64,000 nt of DNA, taken from assembly GCF_000022545.1 (NCBI RefSeq), contig NC_012883.1, positions 1,728,276-1,792,275 on the forward strand, in the 5' to 3' direction. The notes under the pieces are model-generated. The model was not told the origin of the DNA. It worked only from the letters and a program-made list of their open reading frames with translations, and searched no databases. Shown here in pieces: positions 43,313 through 50,336 of this stretch; positions within the stretch are counted from its first letter, which is position 1, and each line of letters opens with the position of its first letter. The DNA is from Thermococcus sibiricus MM 739. Its GTDB lineage: Archaea > Methanobacteriota_B > Thermococci > Thermococcales > Thermococcaceae. Both the position numbers and the translations under genes were made by a program.

Positions 43313-43414
43313 TTGACATCACCAAAATAGAAATCTTGGATGGAGCTATTTAAGGGTTGTCTCCCTTGGACACCAAAGTGCCAACCTGAAGAATGCTAAA
43401 TAAAAATAAAAAAC

Positions 43415-44164
43415 TCATTTTGGAGCAACTTCAGATGTTAATTTTATTGATACTGCAACAGACCCCATACCTAAGAGCAAAGAGATTATCCAGAACTCAA
43501 CAGGAGCCCCACCGAGTAATAGGATCTCTCGAAGGCCAACGACGTGATATGTCAATGGGTTAATTTTTCCTAAAAATTCTATCCACATAGGAGCAGAGCC
43601 TTTGAGATAAAATACAGGAGCAGTGAAGATTGTTGGCAGATTAAGTAGAGCAAAAAGCATGTTTCTTGTTAATTCCCCTCTCATCTTTACCCCAATTATT
43701 ATGCCCATGCTTATCCAAAACACCGTTGAGACTAACAAATAGAGTACAAATTGAAGCAACGTTGCAGAAGATAGATACAAATTAAGGAACAGAACTCCCA
43801 CAAACACCAGGAATAAGGACACCAAGATAACTACAGTGCTCTCCACTAATACCTTCGCAAGAATATAACCACTCAAACTTCCCCCTCCGAGAAGGGATGT
43901 TCGTATTATCCCAAATCTAACATCATTAAATGTTGTCGAGCTAACAACAGGATAAGAATAAAATATTTGAATTGCAATAATACCTGGAAGAACATAAAGG
44001 AGATAGCTTATGGTCTTTCCATGATACTCAAAATTCACGGTTCTCGATAATGAGAATGCAAAAAACAGAAAGTACAGGATTGGGGTTAAAAATTGTGATA
44101 TAAACCCTCCTATTGCCTCTTTCTTTAATGATATCTCCCTGTATACGAACCCATAGAGCCTCAT
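43415..44164 (-). CDS. ABC-2 type permease of the putative peptide-modification cluster
   Basis: A 249-residue integral membrane protein with six helices (for example ISQFLTPILYFLFFAFSLSR, LVESTVVILVSLFLVFVGVL and PVEFWIISLLLGMGSVAVSI). It has the ABC-2 pattern with a long first cytoplasmic stretch. The start overlaps the ATPase stop by four bases (ATGA). It most likely forms the export channel for the modified peptide encoded upstream, or provides self-protection. It is the last gene of the operon. Confidence 0.85.
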   Translation of the reverse strand: MRLYGFVYREISLKKEAIGGFISQFLTPILYFLFFAFSLSRTVNFEYHGKTISYLLYVLPGIIAIQIFYSYPVVSSTTFNDVRFGIIRTSLLGGGSLSGYILAKVLVESTVVILVSLFLVFVGVLFLNLYLSSATLLQFVLYLLVSTVFWISMGIIIGVKMRGELTRNMLFALLNLPTIFTAPVFYLKGSAPMWIEFLGKINPLTYHVVGLREILLLGGAPVEFWIISLLLGMGSVAVSIKLTSEVAPK

Positions 44165-45096
44165 TTTTCAATCCCCCCAATGAGCTTTATAAATCCATCA
44201 AGCAATGTCTCCTCCTTAACAACAATTTGAGTAATATCAAAACCGATATCTCGCAAGAACAGGAGAAGTTCATAAAATGCCAATTTATCTTCCAGCTCTA
44301 CAGTATCTTTTCCAATAATTTTCCCTAAGTTGTTGCGTTTGAGATAATTAGACAGCATTCCCATAAGTTGAGGGAATAATTCCTTTTTGAACGTCACCAT
44401 GACTTTACCGGCATAAACATGTTTGAATTCTCTAAGAGTTGTATGAAGGATTATCCTTCCTTTATGTATGAAAACTATCTCATCAGATAGACTCTCAACT
44501 TCCGCCATGTCGTTAGTTGTTAGGACGAAATAGTATCCCTCCTTACTCATTTCACGAATGAGATCCCAGGTAATCTTTTTCCCGATGGGATCTAGTCCTA
44601 AGGTTGGCTCGTCTATAAATATTAATTTACTTCTTGGATCTAAGAAAGCCCTAGCTAATTGTGTCCTTCGTCTTAATCCTCCAGACAGTTCAAGTACTCT
44701 TTTATGCTGATGCTCAGTTAAACCAAACATTTCAACAATATCATCTAAGCGTTTCTCAAGTTCGTTCTTTGGAATTCCCCGTATTATACCATAGAATTTT
44801 AAATTCGTCCTGACAGAAAGCAGAACATCAAGCTCTAAATCTTGAGCACATAATGATATCATTTCTCTAATTTTCTTTTTATCTTTAACTACATCAAGAC
44901 CGAAGATTTTAGCCATGCCTTTTTGGGGTTTAAATGTAGTCGTTAGTATATTAACTAAAGTGGTCTTTCCAGCCCCATTAGGTCCCAGAATTGAAAGTAT
45001 GCCACTGGAGATATCTGTGCTTAAGTTTATGTCACTCAACGCATAGTCTCTTCCATCATAGGAAAAACTTAGGTTGCTAATTTCTAACAATGGCAT
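44161..45096 (-). CDS. ABC transporter ATP-binding protein of the peptide cluster
   Basis: A 311-residue ATPase: Walker A GPNGAGKTTL, signature LSGGLRRRTQLARAF and Walker B LIFIDEPTLGLDP. The C-terminal 90 residues (VMVTFKKELFPQLMGMLSNY ...) are the extra domain typical of ABC-2 export ATPases. The start is ATG 45096 with GAGGTGGTAGTG ahead; longer starts would lie inside the radical SAM gene, which it overlaps by 20 bases. It pairs with the permease immediately downstream. Confidence 0.9.
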   Translation of the reverse strand: MPLLEISNLSFSYDGRDYALSDINLSTDISSGILSILGPNGAGKTTLVNILTTTFKPQKGMAKIFGLDVVKDKKKIREMISLCAQDLELDVLLSVRTNLKFYGIIRGIPKNELEKRLDDIVEMFGLTEHQHKRVLELSGGLRRRTQLARAFLDPRSKLIFIDEPTLGLDPIGKKITWDLIREMSKEGYYFVLTTNDMAEVESLSDEIVFIHKGRIILHTTLREFKHVYAGKVMVTFKKELFPQLMGMLSNYLKRNNLGKIIGKDTVELEDKLAFYELLLFLRDIGFDITQIVVKEETLLDGFIKLIGGIEK

Positions 45097-46519
45097 CACT
45101 ACCACCTCTGGGCGTATCCCAAAGGAAAATATCATTTGGTGTTCTTTTTGTACCATCCTCAGAGTAGGGGTATCTAATTATACACCTCGGATCTGCAAGT
45201 TCTGGATTGTCGAAAACAATTTCAGAAATCATTGGACAACCTCTCAGACAGTTGTATAAGTAGGAACATTCACTACAAGGAGGTAAAAATTTACTTTTTC
45301 TAAATTTGTTTAGTGTTTTACTGTTTTCCCAGATTTCTTTTAAAGATTGGTACTTGAAATTACCAAAAACGTATTTTTTAGGATATTTTGTCATTAGTGT
45401 TCTTCCAGAGTCACATAAAGTAACATTTCCATTTGGATAAGCTGCTATAGAAAGTATACCAGCACTGCACGTTACTGGAATTCCACATCTGAAATAAGAA
45501 ACCTCAGGTACAAATTTTTTGTCTTTGAATTTCTCCCTTATGGTGTTTTCTAACCATTTAATCTGTTCCTTAGAGGGAAGTAAGTGGCGATCTGCTCTTC
45601 CTTCTGGATAAACGACAAATCCAACAATGCTTTCAGCTCCTAAATCATGCATGAACTCCCAAAGTTCAGGAATTTGATCAATGTTATATTTTGTTATTGT
45701 ACTCCTGACATGTATCTTAAAGCCAGCATCAATTAAGTTATAGATTCCACGAAGAGCTGATTCTAATGTCCCATTTAGTATTAATTTTTGATACGTTTCG
45801 GGATCAAGAGTATCGATACTAATCTGAATCCTCCTTGCTCCACTTCCATAGAGACGCTCTGCAAATTTCTTTGTTATCCCTACGGCTTTTGTTCCAAAGA
45901 TAACATGCTGGTATCCTATGTCAAAAGCGTGGCGAATAACCTTAAATATGTCAGAATATGCCGTTATCTCCCCTCCTGATATTCCAAGGATTTTTGCTCC
46001 AAGGGCTCTTGCTTCGTCCAAAAGCCTCAGTGCATCACCGGTTGCCATAATTACTTCATCATCGGGTTTAAACTTTGCTTCCAATGCCATATTACAATAA
46101 CTGCATTCTAAGGAACATCTCTCTGTAAGTATTAGCCAAAGTGCTGAAAGTTGTGAGAACTTAGTTGGGAATCTTGAGATATTTTTTCTTTCGCTGAGTA
46201 TTTCTTCCTTGGATTTCATAAACTTTTTTGATTTTGTAATGTTCCCTAATTTTCTTTTAGATACAGTAAGTACATCATTCTTATGCATAAAACTTATGAA
46301 GTTCTGAACGTCATGTTTAACTCGTTCCTTTGAGACTTCGTATTTCTGAGATATGAGATTTACAATATCCTCCAAAGAATTTTCTCCAGTGCATAGACGC
46401 AGGACATCAAATTGAGTATAGGTGACAAACATGAATTTGTTTTCCCTTGCTTTATTTATTATAGCTCCAGCATTGGTTTCAATAAGATCAACATCTGGCC
46501 TAAGTATCGGGTATTCCAT
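45077..46519 (-). CDS. Radical SAM/SPASM peptide maturase with PqqD-like N-terminus
   Basis: A 480-residue enzyme. The first 90 residues (ILRPDVDLIETNAGAIINKA ... SLEDIVNLISQKYEVSKERV) look like a PqqD-type RiPP recognition element, which binds precursor leaders. The radical SAM cluster motif is CSLECSYC (Cys135, 139, 142), followed by ILGISGGEIT. The C-terminus has a SPASM domain with CGIPVTC, NVTLCDSG and CSECSYLYNCLRGC for additional iron-sulfur clusters. Such enzymes install thioether or carbon-carbon crosslinks in peptides. The start is ATG 46519 (site GGAGGTGATACA), 48 bases after a 37-residue peptide gene. Confidence 0.88.
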   Translation of the reverse strand: MEYPILRPDVDLIETNAGAIINKARENKFMFVTYTQFDVLRLCTGENSLEDIVNLISQKYEVSKERVKHDVQNFISFMHKNDVLTVSKRKLGNITKSKKFMKSKEEILSERKNISRFPTKFSQLSALWLILTERCSLECSYCNMALEAKFKPDDEVIMATGDALRLLDEARALGAKILGISGGEITAYSDIFKVIRHAFDIGYQHVIFGTKAVGITKKFAERLYGSGARRIQISIDTLDPETYQKLILNGTLESALRGIYNLIDAGFKIHVRSTITKYNIDQIPELWEFMHDLGAESIVGFVVYPEGRADRHLLPSKEQIKWLENTIREKFKDKKFVPEVSYFRCGIPVTCSAGILSIAAYPNGNVTLCDSGRTLMTKYPKKYVFGNFKYQSLKEIWENSKTLNKFRKSKFLPPCSECSYLYNCLRGCPMISEIVFDNPELADPRCIIRYPYSEDGTKRTPNDIFLWDTPRGGSDAIVRN

Positions 46520-46567
46520 TGTATCACCTCCTAATATTGCTATCATGAAACAATAAAAAAGATAAAA

Positions 46568-46681
46568 TCAGAATGGAAGTGGGATGTTTATTAAACATTG
46601 GGCACACCATTTGTCATATGGTTCAACTATACCTCCACCAACTTTAAGACTCATATCATATACTGGCTTTGTCTGCTCCAT
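46568..46681 (-). CDS. Candidate RiPP precursor peptide, 37 residues
   Basis: A short gene from ATG 46681. It starts MEQTKPVYDMSLKVGGGIVE and ends PYDKWCAQCLINIPLPF. The N-terminal part resembles a leader, the GGG could be a processing or hinge region, and the C-terminal part with Cys-x-x-Cys, Trp and proline residues is the likely modified core. The GGGGGTGGG stretch provides a ribosome site. The next gene is a radical SAM/SPASM enzyme with a leader-binding domain, then an ABC exporter. A TATA-like box lies about 50 bases upstream. The size and neighbours support the assignment. The nature of the modification is unknown. Confidence 0.72.
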   Translation of the reverse strand: MEQTKPVYDMSLKVGGGIVEPYDKWCAQCLINIPLPF

Positions 46682-46727
46682 CCTCCCACCCCCATATAGT
46701 TTTGCATTATTATTCCAATTAAATACA

Positions 46728-46738
46728 AAATATAAATT
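46728..46738 (-). promoter_or_regulatory. TATA-like box of the peptide gene
   Basis: Minus-strand AAAATTTATATTTTG lies about 50 bases before ATG 46681, preceded by an A-rich run. A leader of about 20-25 bases would result. Confidence 0.45.
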
Positions 46739-46820
46739 TTTTCTATACAGAATTTTGTTACCATAATTAATAGTAGTAAAAACTTGAACAGAACAAACGT
46801 CTGCAAGAACCCAAATGCAT

Positions 46821-46832
46821 AAAATATATAAC
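46821..46832 (+). promoter_or_regulatory. TATA-like box of the divergent Lrp-like regulator
   Basis: AAAATATATAAC lies 25-36 bases before ATG 46857, so the transcript would be nearly leaderless. The 175-base spacer also holds the peptide promoter and probably the regulator's operator. Confidence 0.45.
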
Positions 46833-46856
46833 ATAATTTATGGAAACTAATTACTG

Positions 46857-47770
46857 ATGAGTGGCATTTCAGTCAACAAAGAGGAGATTGAATTTCTAAT
46901 AAATTTGCTGAACAAATATCCACTTGAAAGCATTAGGAGTATAGCCAAGAAAGAAAATATTAGCTACCCAAAGCTCAAAAAACTTTTTGATAAATATTAT
47001 GGTCCCTCCAAGAGTGTGCATATGGTTGCATCAATTAGCATAGCCAAGCTTGGGCTTATGAGCTACGTGGCGTTTTTGTCAGTTCCAAGCGAGGATATAA
47101 AAGCCACAATTGCCAGAATGTATCGAAATCCGTTTATTCCTGTCGCACTACTTTTTTTGGGTTTATAAATGGCATTTCTGCTGTATTATACGTCCCAGTT
47201 GAACAAAAAAATAAGATAGACGAGCTGCTGTCGAGATACTCTTCAGAATATGAATGCTACGAAGTTTACTCGTACCCTCCGAAAAAGATAGAATTTGGGA
47301 AATGGGACTTAGGCTATAGTTATGCACTCCTGCTTGACATCCTAAAAAGAGATGCAAGAACTCTAATGAAAGAGATAGAAGAGAAACTTGGCAAGAAAAG
47401 ACCCACTATAAAATACATGATTAACAGGCTAAGAAAACTGGGCATTCTAAGGGGATTCATGAGCGTGGTCAATGACAAAGCTTACAACCGTGGCTTCTGT
47501 GGGATAGCGGAAGGGCTAAATGAGGAGTTCATAAAACAGTTCAAAGAGCATGAAATAATGATCGGTATACTGAAACCAGAGGGGTACCTGATAGAGTGGT
47601 ACTTTACAAGTGATGAGGACATCTATCAAAAAATATTTGAATTCAGCAAATATGTTAACAAATTCGGCATATACTATTTTGACATGTTTGAATCTGGTGT
47701 AAAAGGATTCTCTTTTGCAAATGCTGTGAGAAAAGATGAAGGTGGGTACAAATCTATTCTGGATTTTTAA
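46857..47770 (+). pseudogene. Two-module Lrp/AsnC-like regulator with a frameshift in a T7 run
   Basis: The first frame gives an HTH (LESIRSIAKKENISYPKLKK) and a sensor-like segment ending VALLFLGL at 47166. Adding one T to the T7 run at about 47153 continues FFGFINGISAVLYVPVEQKN and a second HTH (LLLDILKRDARTLMKEIEEK then RPTIKYMINRLRKLGILRG), and ends at 47770. The result is a duplicated HTH-sensor protein of about 304 residues. Divergence from the peptide gene suggests control of the cluster. Whether the lesion is real or an assembly error decides whether the regulator works. Confidence 0.72.
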
Positions 47771-48022: not shown

Positions 48023-48399
48023 ATGGAGAAAATGCAAGCTGAAACCATATTACACTGCTTACTTTCAGCCTTAAAACCCTTTCGCCGCAACAAAATCCCA
48101 CCAGAAAAGAAAATCAGAGCAGTAGAGATATACCTGAAAGGCCTCAACTACCGGCAAGTTGGAAGAATACTGGAAATCAGCCACACAACAGTCAGGGAAA
48201 CAGTCCAAGAACTCGCAGAAGCAATCTACCAGCCAAAACTCCTCGCAGTTAAAAAACAAAGAAATTTTATCACAGTTGACGAGACAGTGATAAAAATCAA
48301 CGGGCAGAAAAATACCTCTGGGCTGCAATCGACGTTGAGACCAGAGAAGTTCTGGCAGTCTGGTTACAACAACCAGAAACTGGTGGACTGCCAGAGTGA
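48023..48399 (+). pseudogene. IS6-type DDE transposase, truncated and frameshifted
   Basis: The frame from 48023 reads ETILHCLLSALKPFRRNKIP, PEKKIRAVEIYLKGLNYRQV, an HTH, then FITVDETVIKINGQKN with the first catalytic Asp. Removing one A at about 48315 continues YLWAAIDVETREVLAVWLQQ, the second-Asp region, and stops at 48397-48399. This is the IS6-family pattern of Pyrococcus and Thermococcus elements, which are about 230 residues long. The last third with the catalytic Glu is missing. No intact terminal repeats were identified. Confidence 0.75.
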
Positions 48400-48509
48400 T
48401 GCCACAATTATCCTGAACAGTATGGAAATTTCTCTTCTAAAAACCTTTGATATTAACCTCCTATTAAGTAGCGAGAGTTTCAAAAGAAAAAGAAAAGACC
48501 AAAACACCA

Positions 48510-50336
48510 CTAACTACCAGGAATTATTTTTGGATTGCCTTCATTCCAATCAACAAAAATCGGCTTTTCGGGGATATAATCAAGAGTCTTTAGTATTTCC
48601 ACTCCAGCCTTTGTTCCCCATCTATCAGAACCAGCTACTAAGAGGTATATCTTACCATCTATAATTGTTGCCTCAATAACCCCTTTTCCTTTTCCAGGAT
48701 ACTCGTTTGTGACTTCTACTGGAAATCTACTCATATATTCATTGGTTATACTATTGGCAACTGGTCCTCCAATCAACGCTACTATCTCGGATTCTGTACA
48801 AGGGGTAAACGCTTTATCAGAGCACATTTTTCTCCATAAAGTCCAAGCATAATCTTTGTCCACTCTACCCTCACCATAAATCACGGGAGAACTGCGAATC
48901 ATAGGTACTTTTAATTTGTCGCCTAGTTTGAGAGAGATTGGGGTGCTTGTGAGTAGAGAAATCGGCGTTACACTAAGTTCATTATTTTCCCCCATAACCA
49001 CTAAGGAGAAAGTCTTATCATAGTTGCTAGAGTTAAATACTAGAGTTGGATATTTCATGTTGCTTACAGGTGAGAAATACACCAAATCCCCATTTGGATT
49101 AAATATTTCAATGGAATAGTTATTGTAGGCGTCATAAAACAGGCCCCTCTTTAGGACAATTGGATAAGTTCGCTTAACAATCGAGTCATCCCACTTAAAG
49201 CCAGATAAGAATTTAAGTGTCCTCGGAAATATTGTAACATTTCCATCAATAAGCACATTTTGTTTCGTTTCGGGAGCTTTATAGATGCTGACCCACCCTG
49301 TTATGGTTACATGATCAAATGATACGTGACCAGTAAAATCTTTTATTTCAAGCCAAGAAATTTCAGAATCTTTTATAAATACTGTGGAATTCTTATTTTG
49401 TGCTGTAAGAGTTACTTGAGACAGCTTAGAGTCATGAAGTGTGACCTTAGAATTGGCGAGTACAAGCACATCCCACTCCAAGACTCTTGAATTTTCAAAA
49501 CTTAGGAACCACATCCCTTCTTGAGTTAGATTCATGACATGACTCACGTAGAATCCTGGCTTTAGACTTAAATCAATGTCAATGTCTTTTAACTGTGGAG
49601 TAAGGCTTTTAACAGTAGAATTTATAAGGTAAATCTTGGGAAAGTCCCTTATCTCGATACTTCCAATATATGAATTTTTAATAGTGACTTCAGCATCCTT
49701 TTGAGTCCACATCCATATTCCATCCAAGGTGGAGTCTTGAATTCTTACCACATATTTATCAGAGATCACAGATGCATTTCCAATATTAACCCCTTCATGG
49801 AGATTTGTTACGTTTATTTGTCCAACCAACCAAGAATAAAGGGAAAATTCAGAATTCTTAACCGTTGCTTGGCCCCCAGATAAATAAGGGGTTGTCTCTA
49901 AAGCATCAAAACTAGAGTTAGAAATTTGAAGAACTGGGCTTCCTGTAGACAACGAGATGATTGGTGCTCTTTTAGTTGAAGATAATCCAGTAAACACGCC
50001 TTTTGAGTTGGAGTGAAAATTAATATGGAACTGATAATCAGAGGTAATCACGGAATCTTCTACTACTAACTCAGAAGTGTCCTTCACAACAATTCCATAG
50101 TTATTATGGTAGTCCTGAAGAAGTTCTAGTGTAGCATTTCTAATTACCAGCTTCCCACTATTTTGTATTATTATGTTGCCTTCTTGAAGAAAGGTCATGT
50201 CCTCTATTTTGTATTCTGTGCCATCTATAAGCAGAGTTCCGGTGTGAAACATAGTACTTGCAGCGCTAACTGGAGAAACTGAGAAAATGCTAAAAATCGA
50301 CAGCAACATGACCACAAAGACACCAAATTTTCTCAT
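48510..50336 (-). CDS. Secreted beta-helix protein with S-layer-like C-terminal domain
   Basis: A 608-residue protein with a clear Sec signal (MRKFGVFVVMLLSIFSIFSV-SPVSAA). Residues 30-370 contain many short repeats of the type x-I-x-N-S-x-V/L-x-I (for example VKNSEFSLYSWLVGQINVTN and VTLHDSKLSQVTLTAQNKNS), indicating a right-handed beta-helix. The last 120 residues (ALIGGPVANSITNEYMSRFP, GKGKGVIEATIIDGKIYLLV, AGSDRWGTKAGVEILKTLDY) resemble the domain found at the end of Thermococcales S-layer-type proteins. It is probably cell-surface attached. A decayed IS6 copy lies just downstream. Confidence 0.75.
   Translation of the reverse strand: MRKFGVFVVMLLSIFSIFSVSPVSAASTMFHTGTLLIDGTEYKIEDMTFLQEGNIIIQNSGKLVIRNATLELLQDYHNNYGIVVKDTSELVVEDSVITSDYQFHINFHSNSKGVFTGLSSTKRAPIISLSTGSPVLQISNSSFDALETTPYLSGGQATVKNSEFSLYSWLVGQINVTNLHEGVNIGNASVISDKYVVRIQDSTLDGIWMWTQKDAEVTIKNSYIGSIEIRDFPKIYLINSTVKSLTPQLKDIDIDLSLKPGFYVSHVMNLTQEGMWFLSFENSRVLEWDVLVLANSKVTLHDSKLSQVTLTAQNKNSTVFIKDSEISWLEIKDFTGHVSFDHVTITGWVSIYKAPETKQNVLIDGNVTIFPRTLKFLSGFKWDDSIVKRTYPIVLKRGLFYDAYNNYSIEIFNPNGDLVYFSPVSNMKYPTLVFNSSNYDKTFSLVVMGENNELSVTPISLLTSTPISLKLGDKLKVPMIRSSPVIYGEGRVDKDYAWTLWRKMCSDKAFTPCTESEIVALIGGPVANSITNEYMSRFPVEVTNEYPGKGKGVIEATIIDGKIYLLVAGSDRWGTKAGVEILKTLDYIPEKPIFVDWNEGNPKIIPGS

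Follow-up and report, generated by a model that had tools for sequence, protein, structure and literature searches.

We analysed a 64-kb stretch of the genome of Thermococcus sibiricus MM 739 (hereafter the window; the host genome is a single contig of 1,845,800 bases), which carries a compact cassette of four genes, all on the minus strand. In order, they encode a 37-residue peptide, a radical S-adenosylmethionine (SAM)/SPASM enzyme, referred to here as the maturase, and the ATPase and permease of an ATP-binding cassette (ABC) transporter. We propose below that the cassette makes and exports a ribosomally synthesized and post-translationally modified peptide (RiPP). Its features are:

46571..46681 (stop codon to 46568), minus strand: precursor peptide gene, 37 aa, MEQTKPVYDMSLKVGGGIVEPYDKWCAQCLINIPLPF (open reading frame (ORF) map and conservation)
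46731..46743, minus strand: B-recognition element (BRE)/TATA-like box GAAAAAATTTATA, 5' of the peptide gene (close match in six of six aligned copies, decayed ones included)
46682..46693, minus strand: ribosome-binding site (RBS) of the peptide gene, GGGGGTGGGAGG; its counterpart in Thermococcus sp. S144_40 (G080) is GGAGGTGAT (sequence and alignment)
45077..46519, minus strand: maturase, 480 aa, with RiPP recognition element (RRE; PqqD), radical SAM and SPASM domains (Pfam, alignment, model, fold search)
46523..46531, minus strand: Shine-Dalgarno sequence of the maturase gene, GGAGGTGAT (sequence; GGAGGTGA in G080 as well)
44161..45096, minus strand: ABC transporter ATPase, 311 aa, DrrA-like (PF00005; TIGR01188 at 214.5 bits, below the cutoff of 312)
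43415..44164, minus strand: ABC-2 permease, 249 aa, DrrB-like (PF01061; TIGR01247 at 67.8 bits, below the cutoff of 223)
43325..46872, no strand: approximate limits of the inserted cassette (alignment to three cluster-free relatives, L109, L110 and L111)

A gap of 48 bases separates the peptide and maturase genes, the maturase and ATPase genes overlap by 20 bases, and the ATPase and permease genes overlap by 4 bases. A preliminary description of this DNA, made from the sequence alone, had placed these four genes and both overlaps exactly to the base, and its 175-base spacer between the peptide gene and a divergent, supposedly Lrp-like ORF starting at 46857 is borne out by the coordinates. Both transporter subunits scored well above the Pfam gathering cutoffs (ABC_tran, 86 bits versus 25, for the ATPase; ABC2_membrane, 61 bits versus 26.9, for the permease).

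The peptide carries two Cys residues near its C-terminal end, in a WCxxC motif, with eight residues past the last Cys. The window contains 45 RBS-preceded ORFs of 30-55 codons on its two strands, and no other has a CxxC in its second half. In Thermococcus sp. S144_40 (WAPO01000069.1; L031, L066), the peptide MEQTKPVYDMSLKVGGGIIEPYDRWCALCLINIPLPF precedes a maturase 92% identical to that of the window. The two peptides share 34 of 37 residues, and the copy in a further genome, G004, is identical (37/37). Comparison of the window and S144_40 codons revealed 11 synonymous and 3 replacement differences, with a nonsynonymous divergence (dN) of 0.035 and a synonymous divergence (dS) of 0.79 (dN/dS about 0.04), and the similarity between the two genomes drops past the peptide stop codon. 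Conservation of this frame next to a related maturase is the check that the preliminary description had proposed for the peptide. Moreover, the TATA-like box and RBS are retained, also in decayed copies, and Trp25 is present in every copy that reaches that far (the shared window/G004 sequence, G080 and G114). Being the sole such ORF with CxxC in its second half in the window and under purifying selection, the peptide gene is not a chance occurrence; by these comparisons, it is a real gene. The peptide would consist of an N-terminal leader and a C-terminal WCxxC core. No family in NCBIfam, Pfam or PHROG matched it above cutoff, in agreement with the earlier remark that the core fits no RiPP class that can be named.

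The maturase exceeds the Pfam gathering cutoffs for all three expected domains, as first described: PqqD (PF05402; 33.6 bits versus 23.4), Radical_SAM (72.9 versus 29.5) and SPASM (44.4 versus 21.5). The RRE/PqqD domain occupies about residues 1-87. Across 11 Thermococci sequences, distant relatives included, the radical SAM CxxxCxxC motif (C135, C139 and C142) and seven SPASM Cys residues (C351, C369, C415, C418, C424, C428 and C446) are invariant. An AlphaFold2 model of the maturase had a mean predicted local distance difference test (pLDDT) score of 74.7 and a predicted template modelling score of 0.76. The modelled N-terminus opens with strands, continues with three helices and closes with a further strand, the predicted order being that of the winged helix expected of an RRE. 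The top PDB fold matches of the model were PqqE (6c8v), SuiB (5v1t) and SkfB (6efn), and the closest sequence match in PDB was also PqqE (6c8v, E 1.2e-17). The SuiB match takes in the RRE, because the alignment spans 472 columns. The Pfam match, the modelled secondary structure and the full-length folds thus agree with the leader-binding winged helix first proposed for this N-terminus.

Other Thermococcales contain maturases that are 22-24% identical to that of the window, with short peptides directly upstream (G048, G037, G002 and G061). The precursor candidates upstream of these distant maturases are:

G048: ...VPFVCVSCLLCVSGVLSPTSSIT and ...LPFICKGGCVVCAAGSILSPF
G037: ...VPFVCAACLICISAILRGK and ...VPFKCQSGCVVCAIGAILRST
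G002: ...LPFVCAFCMVCTQSVIKLT
G061: ...IPICMACCLLGGGGVNPY

Their cores contain CxxCxxC in G037, G002 and G048, CxxxCxxC in the second peptide of G037 and G048, and CxxCC in G061. The G048 and G037 peptides are clearly homologous to each other (E 2.4e-14). Of 212 RBS-preceded short ORFs in 271 kb, 12 have a CxxC in their second half, and nine of these 12 are the candidates described here. As in the window, an ATPase gene followed by a permease gene, both similar to those of the window, lies downstream of the distant maturase in G061 (L069) and G048 (L070), and the distant maturase frame of G002 seems broken. Precursor-like matches in G029 and G030 were discarded as out-of-frame noise within other genes.

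The cassette appears to be an insertion. In three relatives (G008, G002 and G005), the two genes that flank the cassette in the window, encoding MTAP and the regulator, lie about 0.1 kb apart with no cluster between them; their homology to the window ends at 43324 on the MTAP side and restarts at 46873, in the first codons of the regulator gene. Because this junction is empty, the cluster of about 3.5 kb was probably inserted in the window, or else cleanly lost from the relatives. The cassette ends have no direct repeats beyond 8 bases. Adjoining the insertion, an ORF at window 48023-48664 resembles a broken transposase remnant, and similar DNA lies near the RiPP cluster of G048 (L070:6323-6582).

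In G080, G097 and G114, the cluster sits at a different chromosomal site. Our in-depth search covered the genomes of the window's phylum, and traces of the cluster were found in 7 of these 115 genomes, counting that of the window (G000). The cluster is apparently complete in G000 and G080, and a contig end cuts the G097 copy. The maturase gene of G004 is split by a transposase-bearing insertion (L061:8437-9296) with a target duplication of about 10 bases (window 46278-46287), and the maturase is still 99% identical. In G114 the maturase is deleted, such that peptide codon 28 almost abuts the ATPase gene, and the final maturase codons are still open. The cluster is eroded in G007, and G042 keeps only a peptide stub. 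The ATPase and permease are still full length in both G004 and G114. From their sequences, the G114 deletion and the G004 loss both look recent, so that the transporter genes kept in these two genomes only hint at immunity. Overall, these comparisons depict a cassette that is mobile, patchily distributed and often decaying. For other phyla, the coverage was a single scan of genome contigs for exact patterns of the peptide, in which Thermococcus sp. S144_40 was the sole match. Among the plasmid matches listed by tblastn for the maturase, all were PqqE-like or unannotated and none exceeded 60% identity; the G048 precursor had no plasmid match, and viral contigs gave no match.

Taken together, the domains, the fold matches, the conserved peptide, the distant clusters with the same layout and the patchy insertion make it quite probable that the locus is a mobile radical-SAM RiPP cassette, from which a cross-linked Cys peptide is made and then exported. 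The 37-residue peptide would be translated, its leader (about MEQTKPVYDMSLKVGG) would dock on the N-terminal RRE of the maturase, and the SPASM radical SAM enzyme would cross-link the C-terminal WCAQCLINIPLPF segment. The DrrA/DrrB-like ABC transporter would then export the product, and may additionally protect the producer. By analogy, the product is likely a narrow-range growth inhibitor of relatives. Most probably, the two Cys sulfurs would be joined to carbons of residues further downstream, as in sactipeptides or ranthipeptides. The arrangement of the genes, the class of the fold and the CxxC common to the precursors point to this chemistry, and our best guess is sactipeptide-like Cys-to-alpha-carbon thioethers, with the Cys donors first and the acceptors after. 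We do not claim sactipeptide membership, because the curated sactisynthase model was not reached (StsB, 71 bits versus a cutoff of 625) and the bonds are only putative. The preliminary description of a RiPP with radical cross-links and export thus stands as to layout (peptide conservation, RRE and folds), but its assignment to an exact class (sactipeptide, ranthipeptide or other) is tentative.

Several results weigh against this proposal. The cluster contains no protease gene. The maturase falls below all NCBIfam equivalog cutoffs (best, AhbD at 119.5 versus 500 and PqqE at 110.9 versus 381) and reaches none of the curated RiPP-maturase cutoffs; the ranthipeptide-maturase model PapB is absent from its best 25 NCBIfam matches. 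When the peptide was read through its TGA into the maturase and the fusion was modelled, the peptide was disordered (pLDDT <50), and leader docking is therefore unsupported by the model. Finally, the window core CAQCLINI resembles the distant CAACLICI, but the best P value for similarity between the window and distant cores was 0.008 by shuffling and 0.065 with Cys fixed; the resemblance is thus suggestive at best, and not significant once Cys is held constant. We therefore dropped homology of these cores and claim the same design for the window and distant clusters.

Cross-links might instead involve the conserved Trp25, as carbon-carbon or Trp-Cys bonds, in place of Cys to alpha carbon. Trp25 is kept in the window/G004 sequence, G080 and G114, and Trp-rich precursor candidates occur beside other SPASM enzymes in Thermococcales. 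However, no Trp precedes the first Cys in the distant CxxC precursors (VPFVC, IPICM), and the residue common to the precursors is cysteine; we consider cross-links through Trp25 rather unlikely. We also see little likelihood that the modified CxxC peptide is exported to bind metal, serving as a metallophore or iron-sulfur-like ligand in the way that methanobactins serve for copper. The CxxC/CxxCxxC spacing does fit metal or cluster binding, exporter genes are present and vent habitats are metal-rich, but the insertion has no uptake or metal-response gene, and a maturase that has been lost repeatedly points to a function that is dispensable and of the conflict type. Least credible is a small redox cofactor cut from the peptide, as by PqqE for PQQ and MftC for mycofactocin, with ABC genes that move the cofactor or are unrelated: PqqE is the closest PDB relative by sequence and fold, and the best NCBIfam matches include PQQ, heme and mycofactocin models, but all of these are far under cutoff (PqqE as above; MftC, 88 bits versus 265), the peptide has neither the ExxxY motif of PqqA nor the VY that ends MftA, the cluster has no partner dehydrogenase or peptidase, and the distant precursor candidates have CxxC in common, not Tyr.

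Among known systems, the window cluster resembles sactipeptide clusters (subtilosin A/AlbA, SKF/SkfB and thurincin H/ThnB), whose content we took from a review (PMC8172795). It shares with them a short Cys precursor, an enzyme with RRE, radical SAM and SPASM domains, and an ABC exporter; SkfB is among the top fold matches, and the SKF export/resistance ABC genes are skfE/skfF (PMC8172795). Unlike them, the window cluster is archaeal, has neither a protease nor a thioredoxin-like gene, and encodes a precursor with just two Cys near its end and eight residues after the last; its S-C-alpha bonds are putative. SuiB, the enzyme of streptide and the KxxxW cyclic peptides, is matched over its full-length fold including the RRE, but the window precursor has no KxxxW and TIGR04080 is outside the best 25 NCBIfam matches of the maturase. 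PqqE/PqqD provides the best PDB sequence match and the PqqD domain, which is fused in the window maturase, but the PqqE cutoff is far off and no other pqq-type genes are among those read in or around the cassette. A genome-mining survey of archaea predicts that clusters of the ranthipeptide and sactipeptide types are widespread there, with haloarchaeal lanthipeptides as its only validated products (PMC12144867). Its main text makes no mention of Thermococcales, and we found no description of radical-SAM RiPPs of Thermococcales in the literature searched.

The cluster design is known; no named precursor or maturase family fits. Should the product exist, it would be a cross-linked peptide of very high heat stability, possibly used in competition among vent archaea. 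Culturable hosts such as T. sibiricus make it testable, and the empty site together with the decayed copies offers a clean natural comparison. More speculatively, and less likely than not, Thermococcales may hold an undescribed class of CxxC-core RiPPs, in which divergent cassettes (the window type, a CxxCxxC type with two peptides in G048 and G037, and a CxxCC type in G061) move between genomes and heat-stable thioether peptides act between archaeal relatives. If so, the repeated loss of the maturase, with an intact transporter in two relatives, would represent cheater/immunity dynamics.

The divergent regulator does not belong to the cassette as had been supposed. Its gene is present in 86 of 94 Thermococcaceae genomes, with or without the cluster, flanks the cluster-free site as well and is absent where the cluster occupies its second chromosomal location; by this distribution, it is a neighbour flanking the insertion. 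In the window, this gene is split into two pieces (46857-47168 and 47366-47770), whereas relatives encode the 305-aa protein intact. The intact G004 regulator is a 305-aa HTH_24 protein (31.2 bits versus a cutoff of 21.9). The frameshift lies near 47155, inside a run of seven T, and may reflect either a genuine mutation or an error in sequencing.

A second precursor-like family, Trp-rich and ending in ...LWSVWGK (e.g. MEEKPQFEEPQVVPLESEETQWALWSVWGKEFPGVS), is conserved in four Thermococcus genomes:

L068:8435-8578, minus strand: Trp-rich ...LWSVWGK peptide
L074:1201-1308, plus strand: Trp-rich ...LWSVWGK peptide
L075:2939-3055, minus strand: Trp-rich ...LWSVWGK peptide
G100:C123:199-273 (L107): Trp-rich ...LWSVWGK peptide

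In three of the four genomes, these peptides adjoin SPASM enzymes whose genes neighbour that for MTAP. Among NCBIfam models, WgkB ranks first for the L068 enzyme (175 bits, below the cutoff of 650) and second for the L074 enzyme, and the WGK ending recalls tryglysin-type RiPPs. G080 also holds a precursor candidate, MNDPKEIPQIVEEETEEWTFSDTQKGNEKWGSIL (L088:1036-1140, plus strand), ahead of a 472-aa SPASM enzyme.

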